Assembly: GCA_017516745.1 (NCBI GenBank)
Contig: JAFXBF010000002.1
Location: 124,001-188,000 of the forward strand
Length of the DNA: 64,000 nucleotides
Source of the DNA: Clostridia bacterium
GTDB taxonomy: Bacteria > Bacillota > Clostridia > Oscillospirales > Acutalibacteraceae
Reading direction: 5' to 3'
Position 1 is the first letter of the stretch, and each line of letters opens with the position of its first letter. Made by a program: the position numbers and the translations under genes. The notes under the pieces are model-generated. The model was given only the letters and a program-made list of their open reading frames with translations, searched no databases and was not told the DNA's origin. Positions 12,417 to 34,816 of this stretch are shown one piece after another.

Positions 12417-12514
12417 ATTTAATTAATAAAAATTAACAATAAAACAGTTGCCTTGCAATGTCTGATATGTTAAAATCAAAAAGATGAAAAACACCGAAAG
12501 GGGATTTACATAAA

Positions 12515-13717
12515 ATGGAAAACTTTACACCCGTTTTAAGATTTATCGCTTCCAGCGACCTTCACGCAAACCGTGAGCACCCTTCAAGAGTTGCAAACTT
12601 CCGCAAGGGTCTTGACCTTATGTATAAATACGCCGAGAGCTGTGATTATAAAAACCTCGATGCCGTAATCATCAACGGCGACTTTGCCGACGGCGGTCGA
12701 GATGAGCAGATGCAGGACGTTAAGGACGCCTTTGATGAGTGCCTCAGACCCGATACAAAGTGGATTCTGACAATGGCAAGCCACGAGTTTTTCTGCGAGG
12801 GCGGCGAGGCAGCAGCACTTGAAAAATTCGGCAGAATTTTCGGTGTACCATGCGATAACCATAACATAATTAACGGCTTCCACTTCATTTCCGTTACCAC
12901 AACTAACGGTTGCCGCTTCAACGATGAAAAGCGTGCGTGGATTAAGGCTGAGCTTGACAAGGCAGTTGCGGATAACCCCTTCAAGCCTGTTTTCTTCTTC
13001 CAGCATCCCCATATTCAGGGCACGGTTTACGGCAATGTTTACTGGGGTGAGGACGAAATTACCGATATTCTTATGAATTATCCGCAGATTATTGACTTTT
13101 CGGGTCACTCTCACGCTCCTGTCAATGACCCCCGTTCAATCCACCAGCAGCACTTCACAAGTGTCGGCACGGGCAGCTTCAAGTATTTTGAGCTTGACGA
13201 GTTTGACAAGATTTACGGCACAGTACCTCCCAATGAGCCCGAGGCGGCACAGTTTGTGCTTGTCGAAGCAGACGAAAAGGGCAGGGTATTAATCAGACCC
13301 TATGATGTCCTTACAGAGAGCTTTTTCGGCTATGAGTGGCTTGTTGAAACACCCTGGGAGCCCGACACATTTACCTATACCGACAATCGCTATAACACAA
13401 GCGTAAAGCCCTATTTTGCCGATGATGCAAAAATCGAAGTCAAGGTAGAGGGCAACGACGCAACCGTTGAGTTCACCCAGGCAAAAATTGACGAGGACAG
13501 AGTAAACGACTATAAGGTAACCGTCCGCCGCAAGAGTGATAACGCAATTGTCCGTCAGCTCTGCTTCTGGTCAAGGTATTACGTTAAAAATATGCCCGAA
13601 ACGGCAAATTGTAAAATCGAAAGCCTTCCTGCGGGCGAATATACCCTCAACGTCACCGCAAAAGGCTTCTGGAATAACAAATCAACTAACAGTCTTACTG
13701 CTGATTTTGCCGTATGA
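12515..13717 (+). CDS. Cytoplasmic calcineurin-like phosphoesterase
   Basis: 400 aa. Metal motifs SSDLHANREH, INGDFADGG, FFFQHPHIQG and FSGHSHAPV are present. The usual GNHE block is altered to TMASHEFF, leaving the histidine but losing Gly-Asn, so activity may differ from its two neighbours. The C-terminal 120 residues form a separate beta-rich domain. No signal peptide. It is transcribed away from the other two phosphoesterases, and its stop overlaps the patatin gene start by 4 bp (ATGA), indicating translational coupling. Confidence 0.85.
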   Translation: MENFTPVLRFIASSDLHANREHPSRVANFRKGLDLMYKYAESCDYKNLDAVIINGDFADGGRDEQMQDVKDAFDECLRPDTKWILTMASHEFFCEGGEAAALEKFGRIFGVPCDNHNIINGFHFISVTTTNGCRFNDEKRAWIKAELDKAVADNPFKPVFFFQHPHIQGTVYGNVYWGEDEITDILMNYPQIIDFSGHSHAPVNDPRSIHQQHFTSVGTGSFKYFELDEFDKIYGTVPPNEPEAAQFVLVEADEKGRVLIRPYDVLTESFFGYEWLVETPWEPDTFTYTDNRYNTSVKPYFADDAKIEVKVEGNDATVEFTQAKIDEDRVNDYKVTVRRKSDNAIVRQLCFWSRYYVKNMPETANCKIESLPAGEYTLNVTAKGFWNNKSTNSLTADFAV

Positions 13718-14559
13718 TGGTAGGCGTTGTTGATGTCGGCGGCGGTCTGCGAGGAGTTTACGGTGCAGGCGTGTTTGACCGCTGTATTGATGAAAATATA
13801 CGGTTCGATTACTGTATCGGAGTTTCGGCAGGCAGCGCAAATATTGCCTCCTATACTGCAGGACAAAGGGGAAGAAATTACAGATTTTTTACTGATTATA
13901 CATTCCGAAAAGAATATATGAGCCTGTCGAATTTTATTCACAGCGGCTCTTATCTCGGGCTTGATTATATTTATTCAACCCTTACAAATCAGGGCGGTGA
14001 GGACCCTCTGGACTTTAAGACGATGTCTGAATTCAACGGTGTAATTAAAACCGTTGCAACAAATGCACTCACGGGTCAGCCGCAATATTTCGGCATTGAC
14101 GATTACAGCCTTAACGATTACGGCGTGCTGAAGGCTTCATGTGCCTTGCCTGTGGTTTGCAAACCGGTGTCAGTTGGCGGCGTGGCGTATTTTGACGGCG
14201 GAATTGCTGACCCCGTGCCGATTGAAAAAGCCTTTACAGACGGCTGTGATAAACTCGTTTTGATTCTGACCAAGCCGCTTGCACAAATTCCCGAAAAAAA
14301 TCCTCGCAACGAATTGACGGCAAGACTTCTGAAGCGTAATTATCCCAAGCTGTCAGAAAGCCTTTGCCTTATGCAAAGCAGGTATAACGACAGCATAAGA
14401 AAAGCGTTGGAATATCAAAAGCAGGGCAGGGTGCTCATTATTGCACCGGACGACTGCTGCGGAATGAAAACACTTACAAAGGACAGAGAGAAAATTGACA
14501 GGCTATATACTAAAGGGTATGAAAATGCGGCAAAAATAAAAGAATTTGTCCGACTTTAA
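13714..14559 (+). CDS. Patatin-like phospholipase
   Basis: 281 aa. The GGGLRG oxyanion loop (residues 9-14), the nucleophile motif GVSAG (S38) and the DGG dyad motif (D161) are complete, so it should be an active Ser-Asp acyl hydrolase on phospholipids or other acyl esters. Length fits the bacterial RssA/YlbK-like subgroup. No signal peptide. It is coupled to the upstream phosphoesterase by a 4-bp overlap, so both may act in one lipid or phosphate-ester turnover step (inference). Confidence 0.9.
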   Translation: MMVGVVDVGGGLRGVYGAGVFDRCIDENIRFDYCIGVSAGSANIASYTAGQRGRNYRFFTDYTFRKEYMSLSNFIHSGSYLGLDYIYSTLTNQGGEDPLDFKTMSEFNGVIKTVATNALTGQPQYFGIDDYSLNDYGVLKASCALPVVCKPVSVGGVAYFDGGIADPVPIEKAFTDGCDKLVLILTKPLAQIPEKNPRNELTARLLKRNYPKLSESLCLMQSRYNDSIRKALEYQKQGRVLIIAPDDCCGMKTLTKDREKIDRLYTKGYENAAKIKEFVRL

Positions 14560-14604
14560 TATTAATTATGCTGCCCTCATAGAATTATATCGGAGGTGTG
14601 AACA

Positions 14605-15435
14605 ATGTCAGTTTCTGTAACGGAAATAATCAAAGCGGTTTTCCTCGGTATAGTCGAGGGCATAACCGAATGGCTGCCGATAAGCAGCACGGGTCATATG
14701 CTGCTTGTCGATGAATTTTTACAGCTGAATATGAGCGAAGCATTCAAGGAAATGTTCTTCGTCGTAATCCAGCTCGGCGCAATTTTAGCCGTTGTAAGCG
14801 TGTTTTTCAAACGGATGATACCTTTTGAAATGAACAATGGGCTGAAAATAAAAAAAGACACCTTTTCCCTGTGGATAAAGGTCGTTATAGCCTGCGTACC
14901 GGGTGCGGTTGTAACATTGCTGTTTGACGATTTTATCGAATCACGCCTGCATACACCCGTTGTAATTGCGCTGACTCTGATTATCTACGGTGTGGCGTTC
15001 ATAGTTATCGAAAATGCGGCAAAAAATAAACAGCCTAAAACCAATCAGCTTGAAATGATAAGCTACAAAGAGGCACTTTTAATCGGTCTGTTTCAGGTGC
15101 TTTCAATAATTCCGGGCACATCACGCTCGGGCTCAACAATAATCGGTGCCTTGCTCATTGGTGTCTCCCGTGTGGCTGCGGCAGAGTTTACGTTCTTCCT
15201 TGCCGTTCCCGTAATGTTCGGCTTGAGTGCACTCAAACTCCTCGATTTCGGCTTCAGCTTTACAACAGATGAAATAATAATTCTCCTTGTCGGCTGTGTA
15301 ACCGCCTTTGCGGTTTCGCTCGGCGTTGTAAAATTCCTTATGAGCTATATCAAGAAAAAAGATTTCAAGCTCTTCGGCATATACAGAATTGTCCTCGGCG
15401 CCCTCGTCCTTGCATATTTTCTGATTATAAAATAA
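14605..15435 (+). CDS. uppP: Undecaprenyl-diphosphatase UppP (BacA)
   Basis: 276 aa, multi-pass membrane protein. The signatures GIVEGITEWLPISSTGHM and IIPGTSRSGST are intact. It recycles the lipid carrier for peptidoglycan by removing one phosphate from undecaprenyl diphosphate and is associated with bacitracin tolerance. A GGAGGTG site precedes the ATG. No hairpin terminator is visible directly after it. Confidence 0.95.
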   Translation: MSVSVTEIIKAVFLGIVEGITEWLPISSTGHMLLVDEFLQLNMSEAFKEMFFVVIQLGAILAVVSVFFKRMIPFEMNNGLKIKKDTFSLWIKVVIACVPGAVVTLLFDDFIESRLHTPVVIALTLIIYGVAFIVIENAAKNKQPKTNQLEMISYKEALLIGLFQVLSIIPGTSRSGSTIIGALLIGVSRVAAAEFTFFLAVPVMFGLSALKLLDFGFSFTTDEIIILLVGCVTAFAVSLGVVKFLMSYIKKKDFKLFGIYRIVLGALVLAYFLIIK

Positions 15436-15465
15436 TTCGTTTTTTCAGTTTTTTTAATAATTCTC

Positions 15466-15515
15466 TTGACTTTTCAATGCCTCATGTGCTATTATACTTA
15501 AGCACTTGAGGCATT
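15466..15515 (+). promoter_or_regulatory. Promoter embraced by a 15-bp inverted repeat, upstream of the hairpin array
   Basis: TTGACT (15466-15471) and the extended TGC-TATTAT (15490-15495) form a promoter with an 18-bp spacer. AATGCCTCATGTGCT (15476-15490) and AGCACTTGAGGCATT (15501-15515) are an inverted repeat with one mismatch that brackets the -10 box, as an operator or a 5' hairpin would. It would drive a transcript into the hairpin array and tRNA segment. Confidence 0.5.
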
Positions 15516-15521
15516 AATAAC

Positions 15522-15626
15522 TTTTGCCGAAGGCAAAAATATCACTTCGCCAAGGCGAAATATCACACACCGTAAGGTGTATATCACATCTGCGAAGCAG
15601 ATATATCACACAATGCGCAGCATTGT
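15522..15626 (+). repeat. Array of five short hairpins separated by constant ATATCAC linkers
   Basis: Five different palindromes occur in a row: TTTTGCC/GGCAAAA (15522-15538), TTCGCC/GGCGAA (15546-15559), ACACC/GGTGT (15567-15580), ATCTGC/GCAGAT (15588-15602) and ACAATGC/GCATTGT (15610-15626). Each pair is separated by exactly ATATCAC, at 15539, 15560, 15581 and 15603, a spacing of 21-22 bp. Stems differ while linkers are constant. No protein is encoded convincingly. Confidence 0.85.
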
Positions 15627-15633
15627 ATAATAT

Positions 15634-15680
15634 GGGGGCGTAGCTCAGCTGGGAGCCCAAAGCACTCAGAAACGCACCCC
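15634..15680 (+). pseudogene. Truncated tRNA-Ala-like 5' half, copy 1
   Basis: GGGGGCGTAGCTCAGCTGGG is an alanine tRNA acceptor strand plus D-arm. It stops after GGGAG and continues as CCCAAAGCACTCAGAAACGC then ACCCC, with no anticodon or T-arm. The 3' end can pair back with the GGGG start. It cannot be a functional tRNA. Confidence 0.75.
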
Positions 15681-15723
15681 GTCAAAAAACTCAATAAATA
15701 AATTGTTCGATGTACCCCTACAT

Positions 15724-15770
15724 GGGGGCGTAGCTCAGCTGGGAGTCCAAAGCACTCAGAAACGCACCCC
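15724..15770 (+). pseudogene. Truncated tRNA-Ala-like 5' half, copy 2
   Basis: Identical to copy 1 over 47 bp except one base (GAGTCC instead of GAGCCC). It lies 90 bp downstream of copy 1 and 42 bp before the intact tRNA-Ala region. Confidence 0.75.
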
Positions 15771-15789
15771 ACAAAAACTTAATAAATCA

Positions 15790-15903
<114 letters not shown>

Positions 15904-15912
15904 ATTTTTTTG

Positions 15913-15936
15913 CCCACTTTTAAAGTGGGTGTTTTT
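15913..15936 (+). terminator. Terminator after tRNA-Ala
   Basis: CCCACTTT-TA-AAGTGGG followed by GTTTTTG, 25 bp downstream of the tRNA. Confidence 0.75.
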
Positions 15937-15965
15937 GTTTTCGTTGGGTTACTACTTTGGGTTTG

Positions 15966-15994
15966 TTGAAATATTCATATGTATATGGTATAAT
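15966..15994 (+). promoter_or_regulatory. Promoter of the zinc-ribbon/nuclease gene
   Basis: TTGAAA (15966-15971), a 17-bp spacer, TATAAT (15989-15994), 41 bp before ATG 16036, which follows AAGGTGAG. Confidence 0.6.
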
Positions 15995-16035
15995 AAATAA
16001 CATAGTAGTTAATTGAAGTAAGGTGAGCCTAAGTT

Positions 16036-18095
16036 ATGGCAGAGAAGAAATATATAATTGATAATGCCGAACTGATGGCAGAATGGAACTGGGAAAAGAA
16101 TAATGAACTGGATTTTGACCCTGAAACATTAACCTTTGGAAGTAATAAAAAAGTGTGGTGGAAATGTCAAAAAGAACACGAATGGCAAGCATCAATAAAG
16201 GAAAGAAATAATGGGTGTGGATGCCCATATTGTGCAGGTAATAACGTTTTAAAAGGTTATAATGATTTACAGACACTCAACCCCGATTTAGCAAATGAAT
16301 GGAATTTTGAAAAAAACGACGGTTTAACACCTATGGATGTAACACCTGGTAGCCATAAAAAAGTATGGTGGAAGTGTAGCAAAGGACATGAGTGGCAAGC
16401 AACAATTAGCAATCGAAACAGAGGAAGCGGATGCTCTTATTGTGCAGGCAAAAAAGTACTAAAAGGATATAACGATCTTGCTACTTTTTATCCCCAAGTT
16501 GCAACTGAATGGAATTATAAAAGAAATGGAGAATTTACCCCTGCAACTGTTACGTTTGCAAGCAACAAGAAGGTATGGTGGATATGTAAAAAATGTGGCG
16601 GTGAATATGAGTCGTATATAAACAATCGAACTCGAAAAGGTGTTGGTTGCCCTTACTGTGCAGGGCAAAAAGTCCGCGCCGGTCATAACGATTTGCAAAC
16701 AATTTCCCCTGATTTGGCGGCTGAGTGGAGTAAGAAAAACACAATTAAGCCGACCGAGGTTACAGCACATTCGAATAAAAAAGTATATTGGGCTTGCCCA
16801 CTTGGTCATGATGATTATTTGATGTCAATCAAGCAACGTAGCAATAGGCAGGGCTGCCCTATTTGTGCACAGCAAAGTCAAACATCGTTTCCTGAACAAG
16901 CGATTTATTTTTACCTCAAGCAAGCCTTTCCTGATACTGTAAACAGATATATATTCGACGGACGAGAAATTGACATATTCATTCCATCCAAAAATATTGG
17001 CATTGAATATAACGGTTATTTCTCACACAAGAAAAAGACAGAAAAAGATATGCTTAAAAAGGCATTCTTCGAATCTATTGGCATTACTTTATTTGTTGTA
17101 AAGGAATACAAATATGCAGAAGAAAAGGAAAATGCAGACTTTTATATTCATGAGCGAACCACTTTTAACAACTTAACTCATCTTATCGAGAATATTCTCA
17201 AATCCTTAAATATTGATATTTCTGTCGATGTGGATTGCTCAAGAGATGCCATTTTTATTAAAAATCAATATGTTATCTTGCGTAAAGAAAATAGCATTGC
17301 TGCTGTAAGACCCGATTTGGTTAGCAGGTGGGATTATGAAAAAAACGGATCTATAACTCCAGAAATGGTCACACTTGGAACCGGTCAACGGTTTTATTGG
17401 AAATGTAGAATATGCAATAGATCATATTTAGCATTGCCAAGCAAAATTGCTGAGGGAAGCGTATGTTCTAAGCATCGCAATCTTTTAAAATATGAGGGCA
17501 ATGATTTAGCAACAAAACACCCTGAATTACTCAAATATTGGGACTATGAAAAAAACGATGTTGAACCGTCCGAAATATTCGGTGGTGGCGAAAGGGTTGT
17601 ATATTGGAAGTGTGAAAAAGGACATAGTTACACTAAGTCAATATTAAAACATATTCGAGGCGAAGGTTGTCCAATTTGTGCCGGGAAAAAAGTATTAGAA
17701 GGTTTTAACGATCTCTTATCGCAAATCCAGAACTTGCTAAAGAATGGGATTATGAGTTAAACAATTGTAAGCCAAATGAGATTCACTATAATAGTCAATC
17801 AAAGAAAATACATTGGATTTGTTCTGTATGCGGTCACAAGTGGCAGTATAAGGTAAGCAACAGAAAAAATTGTCCCGAATGCGAACGTAGAAAGAAGCAA
17901 ATCAATGTATATGATGCAAATGATTTGTCTTTTGTAGGCGCTTTTGATGGAATTAAATCTTTGTGCGAACATCTTGGATTGGATTATAAAAAACAGCATG
18001 GTAACATATCCTCTGTTTGTACTCGTAAACAAAAAACTCTAATGGGGAAATATGTTTTAAGACATGCAAACGATGATGAATTTGGTGAAAAATAA
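16036..18095 (+). pseudogene. Zinc-ribbon repeat protein with Vsr-like nuclease domain, split by a frameshift
   Basis: The first frame runs 16036-17760 (574 aa). The homologous reading continues one frame back from about 17717 (IANPELAKEWDYEL...) to a stop at 18093-18095, so the original protein was near 686 aa. Four N-terminal and two to three C-terminal repeats of the form NDLxTxxPxLAxEW...WWKC...HEW...CPYCAG each carry a CxxC pair, as in DUF4379 zinc ribbons. Between them (residues about 290-385) FDGREIDIFIP...IGIEYNG resembles a Vsr/PD-(D/E)XK endonuclease core. It is the first gene of the island after the tRNA. The frameshift may be decay or a sequencing error. Confidence 0.75.
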
Positions 18096-18155: not shown

Positions 18156-19751
18156 TTACGCCACCTTATCTATTCCCGCTATGAACTGCTCAAAGTCAAT
18201 ATTAAACTCAACTTTCAACTTATATCCTCTGTAAACTTCCACCCGTTTAATCAGGCAGTTTACAATCATTTTCTTCTTTTCAAAGCTTGCTTCGTCATAA
18301 AGCTCTGCCCAAGAAATCAGTTCATCAAAGCTGTCGGATAAGTTTTTGAGAACACTTTCACCGTCTGCAACATCCTTTTCAGCATCACCACATAAATCAA
18401 AAAGTCTGTCGCATTCTTTCTCCGATTCTGCAATAAGCTGCGAAAGTGTATTAGCCGAAAAGGAGCTTTCACCCTTGATTGCCTTAATAACCTCGGATTT
18501 CAGAATAGTGAAATTTTCAAACTCTTTGTCGTAAGCTGACTTTAACATATTTCGCCTTGCTTTTCTTACTTCAAGCTCGTTGGCATATCGTGACATAACG
18601 ACATCATTTTTCGATACACCTTTCATCTTCTTGAAAATGTCACGGACAATATCATCAATCAAATCATCAAGAATGTGCAGTGTATAACCCGATTGACCGT
18701 CACATTTAGTTTGCTTTCTGCTTTTGCCATAACAGGCATATCTGATGCGTTTTGTCGTATCAACAGTCCCGTCTTTTCTTTTACGGTATCTTCCGCTTGT
18801 TGTAAGATTCAGTCTTGAACCGCAATGTCCACAGTAAACCTTGCCGGAGATAAGTGATTTGCCTTTGGTGTTAAGGGGTACTGTGGGATTTTCTTTCTTC
18901 CTATCGGAACGCTCTTGCATTATCATTCTTGCTCTTTCAAACTGTTCAGGTGGTATTATCTGCAGTTCAGGTATAATCTCGGAACGAGATTCACCGCTGC
19001 GGAGAACACCCGTATAGGTTAGATTACAAAGAATCCCTCTTATTGTAGCTTCGTGCCACATTTTACCCGTTCTTGCTCTGTAACCGTTATTATTCAGCCA
19101 AGTTGTAATTCTGTGAGCTCCGTAACCTTCATTAGTGTACTTGTCAAAAATAATTTTAACAACAATAGCTTCATCGGGATTTATCTGCAAATCATTAAGC
19201 TCATGCTTGCGTTTGTTAACTCTGCCGCTTTTCACAAGGTCATATCCAAAGGCTGCAATGCCGCCCTTGAAATGACCTGCTTCAACTAACTGACCAAGAC
19301 TTGTTTTTGTTCGTACTGACGTTTTCTCACTTTCACCGTCAGCCTGCCAGAAGCGAATATAGTTTAAGAGCTTGTCAATGTGATTATCAAATCTCTGTTC
19401 GCCCTCTTGGGTACTCCAAACCTCAATGCCGTTTTTAACAAACCATTCAACAACAAAAGGTGTTTCATCTGCGATTCTGCCTATACGGTCAAACATAAAC
19501 ACAAGCAGAATATCAAACTTTTTCTTTCTTGCAAGGTCTTTTATGATTTGGATTTTGTCACGGTTCTCAGCTCTTACTTTATGACCTGAAACACCGTCTT
19601 CCTGTTCTTCATGAACAATATCCCAACCCATTTCACTTGCGAATTTATGACAAGCCTTTCGTTGCATAGGGATATCAGCTTCATTGTTGCTGTCATAGTC
19701 AACCTGCTTACCTGTTGAAACTCTGTAAAGACAGCACACTCGTTTTGACAT
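18156..19751 (-). CDS. Large serine recombinase (integrase/transposase type)
   Basis: 531 aa. The N-terminal resolvase domain has CLYRVSTGKQ (catalytic Ser12) and VFMFDRIGRIADET. A Recombinase domain follows (NPDEAIVVKIIFDKYTNEGYGAHRITTWLNNNGYRAR...GILCNLTYTGV), then a zinc ribbon (VYCGHCGSRL...YACYGKSRKQTKCDG) and a coiled-coil region. This is the layout of recombinases that integrate and excise phages and conjugative elements. Its start overlaps the upstream gene stop by 1 bp (TAATG). It is the only complete recombinase of the island. Large serine recombinases rarely target tRNA genes, so its link to the tRNA-Ala site is uncertain. Confidence 0.92.
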   Translation of the reverse strand: MSKRVCCLYRVSTGKQVDYDSNNEADIPMQRKACHKFASEMGWDIVHEEQEDGVSGHKVRAENRDKIQIIKDLARKKKFDILLVFMFDRIGRIADETPFVVEWFVKNGIEVWSTQEGEQRFDNHIDKLLNYIRFWQADGESEKTSVRTKTSLGQLVEAGHFKGGIAAFGYDLVKSGRVNKRKHELNDLQINPDEAIVVKIIFDKYTNEGYGAHRITTWLNNNGYRARTGKMWHEATIRGILCNLTYTGVLRSGESRSEIIPELQIIPPEQFERARMIMQERSDRKKENPTVPLNTKGKSLISGKVYCGHCGSRLNLTTSGRYRKRKDGTVDTTKRIRYACYGKSRKQTKCDGQSGYTLHILDDLIDDIVRDIFKKMKGVSKNDVVMSRYANELEVRKARRNMLKSAYDKEFENFTILKSEVIKAIKGESSFSANTLSQLIAESEKECDRLFDLCGDAEKDVADGESVLKNLSDSFDELISWAELYDEASFEKKKMIVNCLIKRVEVYRGYKLKVEFNIDFEQFIAGIDKVA

Positions 19752-28934: not shown

Positions 28935-29312
28935 TTATGCTGTGAAAATCAATTCGTGATTAACAATCTCCCTTGCCCTCGCTTCTATATTGTTCATACG
29001 GGCAACCCATTCCATTTGGTTGTCTGCTTTCAGTTGTTCCGTTATGCCCTCATTGACCTTCATCTTTTCTACCAGCCGAGAAAACATATCAGATGTCTGT
29101 TCATCAACCTCTGCAAGATGAGTCCACAATGTGCCGTTCATAAGCATAATGTTGAACATAACTCGCCTATGTTGCATAAGATAATCTTTGCGTTTCAATC
29201 CCCACATACCGAATGATTTACTCGCTTCGGTAGGTAATGTGATGTTGGGTATCCTGTAATCACCGACCGTTCTATATGTGCCGCCGTTCTGTTCAAATGA
29301 TGGTTTTTGCAT
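28935..29312 (-). CDS. TnpV family transposon-encoded protein
   Basis: 125 aa. YRTVGDYRIPNITLP, GLKRKDYLMQHRRVMFNIMLMNGTLWTHLAEVDEQ and a C-terminal ...GITEQLKADNQMEWVARMNNI match the TnpV family carried by Tn4551-type and conjugative transposons. Role is not established. Its presence supports that this stretch belongs to a mobile element. Confidence 0.88.
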   Translation of the reverse strand: MQKPSFEQNGGTYRTVGDYRIPNITLPTEASKSFGMWGLKRKDYLMQHRRVMFNIMLMNGTLWTHLAEVDEQTSDMFSRLVEKMKVNEGITEQLKADNQMEWVARMNNIEARAREIVNHELIFTA

Positions 29313-29603: not shown

Positions 29604-32600
29604 GTGGAGAAAAAAGATTATTTTATAAGTTATAATAAAGACAATAAGGCCTGGGCAAAGTGGATAGGCGGCACTTTGGAAGAAAATGGATATAGCGTAT
29701 ATTTGCAGGCATGGGATATTATGCCTGGAAATGATTTTATAGAACGCATGAATGACTTTTTGGAATATTCAAAAAACTATATTGCGATTTATTCACAAGC
29801 CTTTTGCAATTCTGAATATTGTATGAAAGAATTTCAAACAGCATTTAATGCACACATTAATAAAGAAATCGATAAATTTATTCCTATTAGGTTGGAAAAT
29901 GTAAAGTTGGGAACATTATATAAAACAACAGTATATATAGATTTATTTGATTTAACTGAGGAAAAAGCTACAAAAGCGTTACTAGATGGAGTTGGTCATA
30001 CGGACAACCCAAGAAATAAAGGAAAGTATCCTGGGAAAATAGATAATGAAATTTCCTTTCCTGGAATAATTAAAAATGATAGTGTTAACTATAGAGATAT
30101 TTTAATATTAGAAAAAGATAAGAATAAAAAAGGCGATTTATTTAATAGATTAGTTTTTGATGTGTTTCATGCTCTTGGATTTGATGAATTTCAATATAAT
30201 GTTCAAAAAACTGGACGAGAAATTGATATGGTTTTGAAACACAGAACCGAAAACAAAGTGGCTTTAGTTGAGTGCAAAGCTCAAAAAGAACCTATTGGCG
30301 GGGATGAGATTAACAAGTTTGTTGGAGTATTAGATGTAGAACAGAAAAGATACAGGTTTGAAGGAAAACGTACAGTTGGATATTTTGTTTCTAAATCAGG
30401 ATTTAAAGCTACAGCAATTGAACAGGAGAACGAACGTGCTCGATTTAATAGTGATCAAGAAGAGAATATTATCTTGTTAGGAACAAATGAAATTATTAGA
30501 GAACTAGTATTAGGAAACATGATTTGTTCTTTAGAAGAAGCAATAGATGTTGTAAAAAAGGATAATGATTTATGTTTGTGTAAAGATGTTGACTTAATTG
30601 CGTGTGAATATGGTTGGATATGGGTGTTATATTATTCAAGCTGCTCAACACAAAAGGCTACACATTTTGCTTTTGTGCATGCAGATGGTAAACCTCTTTT
30701 AAACGAGATTGCAAATAATATATTGAAGTCTGATGAATACTCATTGCATTTTTCTAATCTTTCATACATAAAGTCTAGCGTAAATAAAAATTTAGATAAA
30801 GATGCTGCAAAAAACGCATATTTTGATTATTTAGAGAAGGAACTTGGAGAAATACAATTTGAAGGTTTGCCTACAGACAAAGAAGCGGGCTCTGTAAAAG
30901 TACAATTAGAGAATATTTTTGTTCCACTAGGTTATTATAAGAACGATGATAAAAATAATAAACTTACTATTAATGATGTGTTAAGTTCAAATAAATCTGC
31001 TATATTAGCAAAACCTGGTGGTGGAAAATCTACCTTAATACGAAGAATAGCATTAGCATATGCATATCCTAGTAGAAGAATAAAAGTGGATGATGGTTTA
31101 CCAGACAATGAATGGTTTCCTATCTATATTCGTTGTAGAGATCTCGGTGAAGAAGCGAATAGTGGTCTTTTAGAAATAATTAGTTCAATTGTTAAAAGAG
31201 CTGAAATTAGACAGTACAAAGATGCTTTTGATTCAATGGTGGAAGATTATTTACAAAACGGCAATGTCCTTCTTTTGATCGATGGTTTGGATGAAATAGC
31301 AAACGAAATGAATAGAATAAGTTTTGTTAATCAACTTCGTACATTTGTGGCTATTTATCCTACAACACGACTACTAATTACATCTAGAGAGGCAGGATTT
31401 CGCACAGTGGCAAATACTCTGTCAGGATATTGTGATCACTATTCTATTGCAAATTTGCAGGAGAAACAGATTAGAGATTTAAGTTTAAAATGGCATCAGG
31501 CAATTTTAGGTGATTGCGAAGAAACAAAAACAGAGTCTCAAAAAGTATGTGATATAATATTGTCTGATGATAGAATTATGTCTTTAGCACAAAACCCTCT
31601 ATTGTTAACGACATTGCTTTTTGTAAAACGTTGGGTAGGATATCTTCCGACTAAAAAATGCCAACTGTATGAGGAAATGATAAAACTACTCCTTGTTACG
31701 TGGAATGCGGTTGCTCATGAAAAACTTGATATGGATGAAACAGAACCGCAGTTAGCGTATATAGCTTACAGAATGACATTACAAGGAAAACAAAAAATAA
31801 CAAAAGATAAATTAGCTAAATATATAATCGAAGCGAGAAAAGAATTACCTGAATTGCTAGGATATACAACTTTATCACCATCCCAATTTATAATACAGGT
31901 AGAAGAAAGAAGTAGCCTGTTAATTCAGCTAGGTTTGGAGGAAAATGAAAAAGGAAAACTTGTTCCGTCATATGAATTCTCTCATTTAAGTTTTCAGGAA
32001 TATTTGACCGCAAAAGCTGTTGTCGAAGGATGGAGACCAAATGCAGATAAAACGGACATAAAAGATGTTATCAATGAACATTTATTACAGGAACATTGGA
32101 AAGAAGTTATACCTATGATTGCTGTGTTGTCAGGTCGTCAATCGAGGGTGATAATTGAATCTTTTTTACAAGAATGTGAAAAACTTGAAAATGATTTTAA
32201 AAAAGGTTTTATTTCTAAACACGAACTAAGAGAAAGTATAGTTCCATTTCACTTAGTTAATTGTGTTGCAAGTGAAGTACCAATTAGTGTGGATATGCTT
32301 GAAAAAGCCATTAATTTCATCATAAAGGGCAAGCGTAATATTGATAGAATTGTTAGAAAAAATTCGGGTTATAGTCATGATGGTAGCGTTTATGACATCA
32401 TATTGAAAAGTAAATACGGAGAAAAATATTCAAATATTGTAAACAACAAGTTGTTTGAAAATTTTGATAAAAGTTATCTTTATGAGTATTGTGATGCGTG
32501 GTTGAGAACAAATTTGCGCACAAATATTTCACTTGAAGATATAGAGCAGCATTTTAATTGTTCAGAAAACAAAGAGTATATTAAAGGCTCCTTGCTTATG

Positions 32601-33182
32601 ATGCATTACTCTTACAGAATTGCACAACCCATAATAAAAAATCTGAATAGTGAAAAGAAAAGAAGTCAAGAAAAAGCAGATAAAAAATATATCAATACTA
32701 TTTTTAACAAGGTGTATGAATTATTAAAAACAGATGATGTGTTGAGTTTGTTTGTTGCCTCATGGTGCTTAGCTTGGTCGGGTTATAATGAAATTGATAT
32801 CATACCTACAAAACTTTATAGTTGTTTGTTTGAACGATTGATTGAGTTGTGGGAAAGTAATCTTGTTTACACAGAGTTGGAACGAACAGTATCCTGGGCA
32901 CTAAGAACTATAATAAGACCTAATATACAGATTAATAATATCAATTACGATAGGTTAGTAGAATGTATAGAAAGAAAGTATAATGAACCTCAAAATGAGT
33001 TTGATGCGGAAGTTTCCATAATGTTGGCTTTCCTAACTGGATATTGGAATGTTAAAGAAACTGTTAAAAAAATTCATCAATTAAGAAATAATAATTTTAG
33101 TGTTGATGAAAATTTGCGATTCTGGGAAGAGATTGCCAAAAATAATAAACTTTTCGATAAGGAACTCAAAAAGATAAAATAA
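29604..33182 (+). CDS. TIR + PD-(D/E)XK nuclease + NACHT STAND ATPase, putative antiphage protein
   Basis: 1192 aa. Residues 1-135 are a TIR_2 domain (DYFISYNKDNKAWAKWIGGTL) with the NADase-type box YCMKE (E76). Residues about 170-305 are an Mrr-like PD-(D/E)XK domain with GREID (D208) and ECK (E223, K225). A NACHT NTPase follows, with the lead-in FEGLP...ENIFVPL, Walker A AKPGGGKST (K475), Walker B VLLLIDGLDE (555-564) and sensor LLITSREAGF. About 350 helical C-terminal residues have no recognised repeats and may sense the trigger. STAND proteins with TIR or nuclease effectors act in phage defence, killing or arresting infected cells. GTG start; AAAGGAG lies 13 nt upstream. It has its own terminator, a standalone gene at the island end before the att copy. 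Confidence 0.9.
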   Translation: MEKKDYFISYNKDNKAWAKWIGGTLEENGYSVYLQAWDIMPGNDFIERMNDFLEYSKNYIAIYSQAFCNSEYCMKEFQTAFNAHINKEIDKFIPIRLENVKLGTLYKTTVYIDLFDLTEEKATKALLDGVGHTDNPRNKGKYPGKIDNEISFPGIIKNDSVNYRDILILEKDKNKKGDLFNRLVFDVFHALGFDEFQYNVQKTGREIDMVLKHRTENKVALVECKAQKEPIGGDEINKFVGVLDVEQKRYRFEGKRTVGYFVSKSGFKATAIEQENERARFNSDQEENIILLGTNEIIRELVLGNMICSLEEAIDVVKKDNDLCLCKDVDLIACEYGWIWVLYYSSCSTQKATHFAFVHADGKPLLNEIANNILKSDEYSLHFSNLSYIKSSVNKNLDKDAAKNAYFDYLEKELGEIQFEGLPTDKEAGSVKVQLENIFVPLGYYKNDDKNNKLTINDVLSSNKSAILAKPGGGKSTLIRRIALAYAYPSRRIKVDDGLPDNEWFPIYIRCRDLGEEANSGLLEIISSIVKRAEIRQYKDAFDSMVEDYLQNGNVLLLIDGLDEIANEMNRISFVNQLRTFVAIYPTTRLLITSREAGFRTVANTLSGYCDHYSIANLQEKQIRDLSLKWHQAILGDCEETKTESQKVCDIILSDDRIMSLAQNPLLLTTLLFVKRWVGYLPTKKCQLYEEMIKLLLVTWNAVAHEKLDMDETEPQLAYIAYRMTLQGKQKITKDKLAKYIIEARKELPELLGYTTLSPSQFIIQVEERSSLLIQLGLEENEKGKLVPSYEFSHLSFQEYLTAKAVVEGWRPNADKTDIKDVINEHLLQEHWKEVIPMIAVLSGRQSRVIIESFLQECEKLENDFKKGFISKHELRESIVPFHLVNCVASEVPISVDMLEKAINFIIKGKRNIDRIVRKNSGYSHDGSVYDIILKSKYGEKYSNIVNNKLFENFDKSYLYEYCDAWLRTNLRTNISLEDIEQHFNCSENKEYIKGSLLMMHYSYRIAQPIIKNLNSEKKRSQEKADKKYINTIFNKVYELLKTDDVLSLFVASWCLAWSGYNEIDIIPTKLYSCLFERLIELWESNLVYTELERTVSWALRTIIRPNIQINNINYDRLVECIERKYNEPQNEFDAEVSIMLAFLTGYWNVKETVKKIHQLRNNNFSVDENLRFWEEIAKNNKLFDKELKKIK

Positions 33183-33451: not shown

Positions 33452-33510
<59 letters not shown>

Positions 33511-33703: not shown

Positions 33704-34816
33704 TTATTTTTTCTCGGCTTTTGCTTTTTTAATCTGCGAAACAGCAAAAAGAATCATTTCATCGTCAATATGTGTGTAAACTTTTTCGGTAACATCAGCG
33801 GCAGGGGAGTGTCCGAGCAGCTTTTTTGTTACGAGTGGGTCAACGCCTTGCTTACGGCAGATTGTGGCGAAGGTGTGACGGGTGACGTGGGGCGTGAACG
33901 CTTCGCCTGTAGTTTGCTTTATTCCAAGCGCATCCAGGCAGGGTGAAAACATAAACTTTCGGAAATAATCGGATGTTACGGGTACGAGCTCGATGCGTCT
34001 GTTCTTACCTTTGCCGACAACATTCTCACGGCAAACCAGTTTCGGACCGTTGCGCCCGAGCAATTCATCAACATACGGCTGCACGTGCTCCGGCACAGGC
34101 ACAACTCTGTTTTTGCCGCTTTCGGTTTTGAGACCGCCTGTGAATGCTTTTGTTTCCGCATTGTAGTCTTGCGCTGTAAGGCTCAAAAATTCGCTTACAC
34201 GCCAACCTGTGTAACAGAGTATAACAATGAGCTTTGCAACCTTGTTGCCGCATTCTGCGGCGATTTCGAGCGTTTCTAACTGCTTTGCTGTGAATATCTC
34301 TTTTTCTTTCTTTTCTTCAGCAGGAAGCTGTATGAAATCTGCGTAATTCTTTTCTATGATATCATACTGCATAGCGTGTTTTTCGAGCATACTTGAAACG
34401 AGTTTGACGTTTCGCATTGTAGAGAGGGATTTGCCTTCGTCCGTCATTCGGTCGATTACTTCCTGGAAATGGCCGCTTCTGAGAGTTCGTATTTTCATAT
34501 TGTGCAGCTCATCCAGGTGCTTCCACGCTGCACGGTAGCAGTCGGCCGTGCTCTTGCTAATAGACTGATACGCTTTTTTGCTCCATTCGGTGTAGAGGTC
34601 TTCAAGAGTGAAGTTGAGCTTACTGCCCTTGAATTTGTTGTAATCGGCGAGCATCTGCAAGGCTTCATCCTCGGTCTTGGCCGAGCCGATTATTTCACGG
34701 CGGCGTTTACCGTCCGAACAACGCTTGAGCGGAGTGAACACAATAAACGGATTGGCACGGTTGCCGTCCTTGTACTCTCTGATAGAGCCGTAGCCGTTTG
34801 GAAATCTTTTCTTCAT
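33704..34816 (-). CDS. int: Phage tyrosine integrase
   Basis: 370 aa. The N-terminal AP2-like and SAM-like DNA-binding part (KKRFPNGYGSIREYKDG...) is followed by the catalytic domain with LCYTGWRVSEFL (Arg), PHVTRHTFATICRKQG (HxxR), LLGHSPAADVTEKVYTH (His and Tyr nucleophile). It inserts and excises the prophage by site-specific recombination. It sits 194 bp from the tRNA-Ala remnant, which is therefore the likely attL, and is transcribed toward it, as usual for Firmicutes Siphoviridae- and podovirus-like prophages. AAAGGAGG precedes the ATG. Confidence 0.95.
   Translation of the reverse strand: MKKRFPNGYGSIREYKDGNRANPFIVFTPLKRCSDGKRRREIIGSAKTEDEALQMLADYNKFKGSKLNFTLEDLYTEWSKKAYQSISKSTADCYRAAWKHLDELHNMKIRTLRSGHFQEVIDRMTDEGKSLSTMRNVKLVSSMLEKHAMQYDIIEKNYADFIQLPAEEKKEKEIFTAKQLETLEIAAECGNKVAKLIVILCYTGWRVSEFLSLTAQDYNAETKAFTGGLKTESGKNRVVPVPEHVQPYVDELLGRNGPKLVCRENVVGKGKNRRIELVPVTSDYFRKFMFSPCLDALGIKQTTGEAFTPHVTRHTFATICRKQGVDPLVTKKLLGHSPAADVTEKVYTHIDDEMILFAVSQIKKAKAEKK

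Follow-up and report, generated by a model that had tools for sequence, protein, structure and literature searches.

NACHT proteins that bear TIR or SIR2, like TIR-STAND proteins, are members of anti-phage families (PMC10952713, PMC9122126), and many NACHT proteins have one of these two domains as their effector (PMC10952713). In the clade 6 proteins bNACHT25 and bNACHT32 of E. coli, an N-terminal PD-(D/E)XK DNase is followed by a central NACHT module and a helical C-terminus; residue D48 of the nuclease domain is required for phage defence, and DNA is degraded upon infection (PMC12169576). In the scheme given there for bNACHT proteins, sensing is the task of the C-terminus, NACHT brings about oligomerisation and the N-terminus is the acting part (PMC12169576). 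In the STAND family found at satellite hotspots (TIR-NLR), the N-terminal TIR is replaceable by SIR2 or Mrr_cat (PMC9122126). Two effectors in one chain are described for the partners of short prokaryotic Argonautes (pAgo), in which a restriction endonuclease (REase) and TIR share a defence polypeptide and, as the authors suggest, both may act on activation (PMC10810196). Other combined effectors include PIN with NACHT and the NaeI REase with a cyclase (PMC7159879), as well as CHAT with TIR in the target of a diversity-generating retroelement (PMC10907252). Here we describe a gene located at 29604-33182 (+) in a 64,000-nucleotide stretch of a Clostridia bacterium genome (GCA_017516745.1, contig JAFXBF010000002.1, positions 124,001 to 188,000; hereafter, the window), the predicted product of which combines TIR, Mrr-type PD-(D/E)XK and NACHT domains in a single polypeptide.

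The gene is one open reading frame (ORF) of 1192 residues, free of internal stops. Three Pfam domains exceed their curated cut-offs in its translation: TIR_2 at residues 7-126 (3.9e-28, 98.8 bits), Mrr_cat at residues 178-277 (2.5e-9, 37.7 bits) and NACHT at residues 470-632 (1.4e-11, 45.0 bits versus a cut-off of 26.7). The profile matches confirm the union of TIR, a predicted Mrr-type PD-(D/E)XK nuclease and NACHT in one chain, which a preliminary description made from the sequence had proposed; the residues named in it (E76, D208, E223, K225, K475 and Walker B) also proved to be correctly placed. Their contexts are SEYCMKEF for E76, GREID for D208, VECK for E223 and K225, and PGGGKST for K475, while Walker B reads LLLIDGLDE (556-564). 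The GTG start is matched in the alignment by the ATG of the homologous locus L028, and AGGAG lies 12 nt 5' of it, which is a rather long spacing for a ribosome site. The region behind NACHT (residues 641-860) may have a helical or winged-helix fold. The C-terminal region (residues 861-1192) has no Pfam match up to E 0.1, and its identity to the second homologous locus, L009, is 33-35% versus 57-68% in the other regions of at least 120 residues.

Two other possibilities were considered and rejected. A frameshift or an assembly artefact is contradicted by the single open frame and by the intact copies in two other genomes. The other is a pair of isoforms, the shorter one starting inside the gene where TIR meets Mrr: there is no in-frame ATG, GTG or TTG within residues 120-184, so a TIR-less product starting at the junction is not expected.

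We consider it rather probable that the gene encodes a stand-alone anti-phage protein of the NLR-like (bNACHT) kind, in which two effectors follow one another and the NACHT switch would fire both at once, one as an NADase and the other as a DNase. An infection cue would be recognised by the C-terminal region (861-1192), the variability of which is what one expects of a sensor. The NACHT ATPase would then oligomerise; with the N-termini clustered, TIR would hydrolyse NAD+ and the Mrr-type PD-(D/E)XK domain would cleave DNA, and the cell would be killed or arrested before phage release. The presence of TIR and Mrr_cat in one chain is read most simply as meaning that NAD loss and DNA cutting are activated jointly. 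The oligomerisation, the NADase and DNase chemistry, the phage trigger and the cell arrest are proposed by analogy with known families.

To place the protein among its relatives, 84,980 species genomes were scanned with a 3-row alignment, which gave 466 relatives; the best 80 were kept, and the following counts, which refer to them, are lower bounds. An Mrr match is present in 38 of the 80, and in 35 a single ORF encodes both Mrr and NACHT. These Mrr-NACHT relatives are mostly about 1030 residues long and TIR-less; just two of the 35, L028 and L009, also carry TIR, and thus the TIR, Mrr and NACHT architecture, which the preliminary description had left to a search, recurs outside the window. 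The remaining 36 Mrr loci have no TIR ORF in the locus DNA, TIR absence being defined by blastp with the window TIR at E 1e-4 and, for the 30 members aligned below, by Pfam as well. Among the named hosts are Bacillota, Bacteroidota, Pseudomonadota, Actinomycetota, Acidobacteriota, Planctomycetota and archaea. Of the kept loci, those with SIR2-NACHT proteins come next in similarity; the corresponding tree group (L050-L060), the 11 members of which form one side of a 100/100 branch, is labelled SIR2 from a Pfam check of 4/11, plus L008.

The three-domain protein is rare around its host. Six-frame searches in genome samples, which overlap, matched 1/300 genomes of the same family at the set cut-off (the window genome), 2/391 of the class (the window genome and a TIR-only match) and 2/398 of the phylum (the window genome and a broken copy). 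Within the genus, 1/11 genomes matched, being the window genome, and the 10 others were without a match at E 1e-10. The family of L009 gave 4/299 genomes (its own, one with a TIR-less Mrr-NACHT and two with partial matches), and the family of L028 gave 1/38, which is L028 itself.

A 53-row tree of the NACHT region places the four rows with TIR, one of them broken, in a 12-row clade (100/100) where all phylum-labelled rows are Bacillota and TIR-bearing rows are mixed with TIR-less ones. In a 17-row tree, the TIR rows require three changes. A single TIR clade is rejected with L018 outside it (approximately unbiased test, p 0.0009) and not rejected with L018 inside (p 0.277), this locus being cut at its 5' end, so that the presence of TIR in it is not readable. 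What can be stated safely from these trees is that TIR was added to an older, widespread Mrr-NACHT protein, inside or at the base of the 12-row clade, and that L015 is losing it; TIR is an occasional addition to an old Mrr-NACHT family.

The decaying copy is found at L005 1360-4606; by length and ORFs, its contig is also that of L015 (Thermacetogenium sp. UBA4966). Most of its TIR has been deleted in frame, leaving about 16 residues; Mrr follows, and the frame changes before the NACHT ORF. The kind of protein from which TIR may have been donated is illustrated by L105, a free-standing TIR protein of 387 residues in L009's family, which is a close relative of the TIR domain, the likeness extending to the NPRxKxx(Y/F)P stretch behind it. 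Another arrangement is seen in L066, L068, L069, L071 and L078, where a separate TIR ORF (131-154 residues stop to stop) directly precedes or overlaps a NACHT ORF; these are possible two-gene or frame-shifted TIR-NACHT systems. HEAT repeats occur in the NACHT ORFs of L066, L069 and L071, the three that were scanned, and those of L066 and L071 also have a weak TIR_2 match.

Residue conservation was analysed in an alignment (A2) of 30 rows comprising the window protein and 29 of those 35 Mrr-NACHT relatives; L024, L025, L030, L032, L035 and L047 were excluded because of an unclear start or a cut frame. Pfam detects Mrr_cat and NACHT in 30/30 rows and TIR_2 in 3/30. Residues D208, E223, K225, K475, T477, D560, D563 and E564 are each invariant (30/30), and so are the neighbouring G204, R205, E206, H213 and N237. 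E76, which we take to be the catalytic Glu of TIR, is conserved in 3/3 TIR-bearing members, and its column is E in 14/14 aligned TIRs. The ratio of nonsynonymous to synonymous change (pN/pS) between the window and L028 is 0.09 in TIR (bootstrap 0.05-0.13), 0.17 in Mrr, 0.16 in NACHT, 0.43 in the TIR-Mrr linker and 0.29 in the C-terminus, TIR being the most constrained part; since synonymous divergence is high (dS 0.65-1.65), these ratios are compared between domains and not taken as absolute. With L009, where synonymous sites are saturated in most regions, the values are 0.29 for TIR, 0.41 for Mrr, 0.33 for NACHT, 0.90 for the linker and 0.61 for the C-terminus. Divergence of Mrr relative to NACHT is 1.15-1.22 in the three TIR-TIR pairs, within the range seen in 21 TIR-less pairs (0.63-1.44). 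These patterns indicate that the TIR and Mrr domains are both under purifying selection and that their predicted active sites are conserved.

The constraint on TIR bears on an explanation in which Mrr is the sole weapon of a NACHT DNase and TIR is a homotypic assembly or regulatory module devoid of NADase activity. It agrees with the lack of a detected TIR in 33/35 Mrr-NACHT relatives and with the intermixing of rows with and without TIR inside one clade; however, neither the preserved E76 nor the low pN/pS of TIR against L028 would be expected of it, unless TIR has a structural role, which is still compatible with both. We regard this explanation as unlikely.

Several points weigh against the joint firing of two effectors. 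Mrr enzymes often have an acid at the helix position corresponding to N181 of the window protein, and over the 30 members this position is occupied by N, G, A or T, so the nuclease chemistry is not certain. The median divergence of Mrr relative to NACHT is slightly higher with TIR (1.16, 3 pairs) than without it (1.06, 21 pairs). In view of the rarity of the combination and of the loss of most of TIR in L005/L015, the benefit of the second effector may be temporary. Finally, neither PADLOC nor NCBIfam gives a whole-protein match to a catalogued defence family, and membership in one on that basis was rejected. The missing acid and the shifted median, along with the somewhat higher pN/pS of Mrr than of TIR in the comparison with L028, would suit a TIR-led protein, in which the newly acquired NADase does the work and Mrr has become an inert structural spacer or a DNA-binding piece. 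This is hard to reconcile with the retention of D208, E223 and K225 in the TIR-bearing members, the broken copy included, whose Mrr ORF also has them, or with an Mrr divergence lying within the TIR-less range, and we find it improbable. Hardly more credible is a staged or in-cis coupled action, one effector working at low activation (e.g., cleaving invading DNA) and the other only at high, or a TIR product regulating the adjacent Mrr, for which the adjacency of the domains and their loosely constrained linker offer an architectural possibility only.

Under the preferred reading, with NADase and DNase fired together, one can tentatively suggest, with less assurance than for the reading itself, that the protein represents an undescribed class of NLR-like receptors. 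One sensor-ATPase would drive both NAD+ destruction and DNA cleavage, having been built by the addition of TIR to an old Mrr-NACHT protein, so that a phage neutralising one activity would still be stopped by the other. Two separately mutable effectors allow one to ask why NAD loss and DNA cutting are combined in one receptor, the possible reasons being a safeguard in case a phage counters the defence, a faster response or a response in stages. Natural controls are provided by the relatives with and without TIR and by the one decaying copy.

The preliminary description had assigned the gene to an island beside a prophage, as a stand-alone gene in a typical defence location, and the neighbourhood (Table 1), which is of a mobile kind, supports this: the 59-bp copy of the tRNA-Ala end and then the prophage integrase follow the gene, which forms the right end of the island. 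The island's G+C content is 0.32-0.40 (2-kb windows, 16 to 33 kb) versus 0.43-0.50 to the left of it, and it also has a ParB-like gene. The prophage to the right has an integrase, a CI-type repressor, an exonuclease, a terminase, a portal and a major head protein. A 31-bp copy of the att core (94%) lies at L108 11749-11779, which is 75.7 kb in window coordinates and implies a prophage of about 42 kb; with three copies of the tRNA-Ala att core, the island and the prophage appear to be arranged in tandem at one tRNA gene.

Table 1. Features of the TIR-Mrr-NACHT gene and its surroundings (window positions).
Feature	Position	Strand	Remarks
TIR-Mrr-NACHT gene	29604..33182	+	1192 aa, GTG start; homologues L028 (78%), L009 (55%)
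TIR domain, residues 1-130; E76 putatively catalytic	29604..29993	+	Pfam TIR_2; E76 column
TIR-Mrr linker, residues 131-163	29994..30092	+	least constrained stretch
Mrr-type PD-(D/E)XK nuclease domain (predicted), residues 164-305; D208, E223, K225	30093..30518	+	Pfam Mrr_cat; residues 30/30
Family-specific linker region, residues 306-425, with ELGEIQFEG	30519..30878	+	kept with or without TIR among relatives
NACHT ATPase (predicted), residues 426-640; Walker A K475, Walker B 556-564, TSR 593-595	30879..31523	+	Pfam NACHT; invariant residues
Post-NACHT region, residues 641-860	31524..32183	+	well conserved: 84% to L028, 68% to L009
C-terminal region, residues 861-1192, putative sensor	32184..33179	+	most variable large region
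tRNA-Ala(GGC), left island border	15812..15887	+	intact
Large serine recombinase of island	18156..19751	-	
TnpV-family transposon protein adjoining the gene	28935..29312	-	
Copy of tRNA-Ala 3' end, att-like	33452..33510	+	59 bp, 93%; between island and prophage
Tyrosine integrase of flanking prophage	33704..34816	-	just beyond the 59-bp tRNA-Ala copy

A 574-residue protein (window 16036-17760, +) matches the MTES_1575 REase weakly and contains treble-clef zinc fingers (DUF4379) in six stretches; it is possibly another nuclease of the island. An Rfam Gut-1 RNA lies at window 15555-15635 (-), just left of tRNA-Ala.

The other intact loci have surroundings of their own. The TIR-Mrr-NACHT gene of L028 is preceded, at a distance of about 150 bp, by the end of a serine recombinase. 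That of L009 has a tyrosine integrase and a DUF3368 gene on its upstream side; downstream there is a defence cluster (12499-17917) with a PIN gene, a DRT8 reverse transcriptase (494 bits) and a TOTE protein combining primase, helicase and PLD. All-vs-all blastp of 143 ORFs of at least 80 residues within about 8 kb (E 1e-4) gave no neighbours common to the three intact loci, which fits a single-gene system. The window protein has no match in phage records, no place in plasmids covers 80% of it, and no copy was found in viral contigs scanned with it and with alignment A3. Scanning of viral contigs with alignment A2 gave 10 loci, among which L089 and L090 match from the Mrr region onward. L089 (6022-9312) is a TIR-less Mrr-NACHT on a viral contig; close to it are genes that look by eye like an integrase and a tape-measure gene, so this family member is probably carried by a prophage.

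Parts of the protein resemble catalogued components. By PADLOC and NCBIfam profiles, its TIR is similar to those of TIR-Argonaute, retron-TIR and Thoeris III proteins. PADLOC bSEFIR matches residues 4-387 weakly (19.7 bits) and 3/30 members. EruA matches 27/30 members (best 3.3e-11), and in the window protein it covers residues 550-702 only, with 26.8 bits versus a cut-off of 1000. The mREase_IV model matches 7/30 members, and the PDC-S02 models match up to 5/30. PADLOC includes Avs models; none is among the 16 PADLOC families that match any of the 30 members at E 0.001, and none matches the window protein up to E 0.01. Searches against solved structures returned Toll-like receptors only, for TIR, and the family profile gave weak matches to NLRC4 and importin with no stretch passing alone.

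Avs4 and other Avs proteins are stand-alone STAND NTPases with an N-terminal nuclease and a C-terminal sensor. The likeness to the window protein is in this stand-alone layout; the difference is the absence of an Avs profile match in the 30 members.

The sequence of the window protein shows two traits of bNACHT proteins: NACHT with Walker A and B is present, and it is preceded by two effector-type domains. NCH1 had no match in its Pfam scan, and Pfam may not hold an NCH1 model. With bNACHT25 and bNACHT32 it shares the N-terminal PD-(D/E)XK DNase, predicted here, before a central NACHT, a likeness drawn by description and not by sequence; a search for kinship with E. coli bNACHT25 (WP_001702659.1) matched 1/246 genomes, which was the centre itself, and further searches gave no match. 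The 27 TIR-less members of alignment A2 have the conserved Asp at residue 43-59 from the start used, and exactly at 48 in 10 of them, which we treat as a lead only towards D48 of the E. coli proteins. TIR marks the difference: it is part of the window protein and has 0 occurrences in the main text of the bNACHT25/32 paper (PMC12169576).

The TIR-, SIR2- and Mrr_cat-STAND proteins place the same kinds of effectors before a STAND/NACHT switch (PMC9122126, PMC10952713). Their effectors are alternatives, whereas TIR and Mrr stand in one chain here. The statement of the preliminary description that bacterial STAND/NACHT proteins usually carry one N-terminal effector is in line with these descriptions (PMC10952713, PMC12169576, PMC9122126).

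The short-pAgo partners are similar to the window protein in having a nuclease and TIR in one chain (PMC10810196; PADLOC Aga_REase-TIR). Unlike it, they carry APAZ, and the sensor is the guide-loaded pAgo. The Aga models cover the window TIR up to residue 113 only, with no whole-length (APAZ) match, and the scanned flanking genes (TnpV, integrase and an unknown protein) include no pAgo gene. In the open-licence literature searched, no NACHT protein with both TIR and a nuclease was found. Therefore, TIR, SIR2 and Mrr as alternative STAND effectors, and REase with TIR in short-pAgo partners, are already known, while the new feature, as far as this literature shows, is the occurrence of TIR and Mrr together in one NACHT protein.

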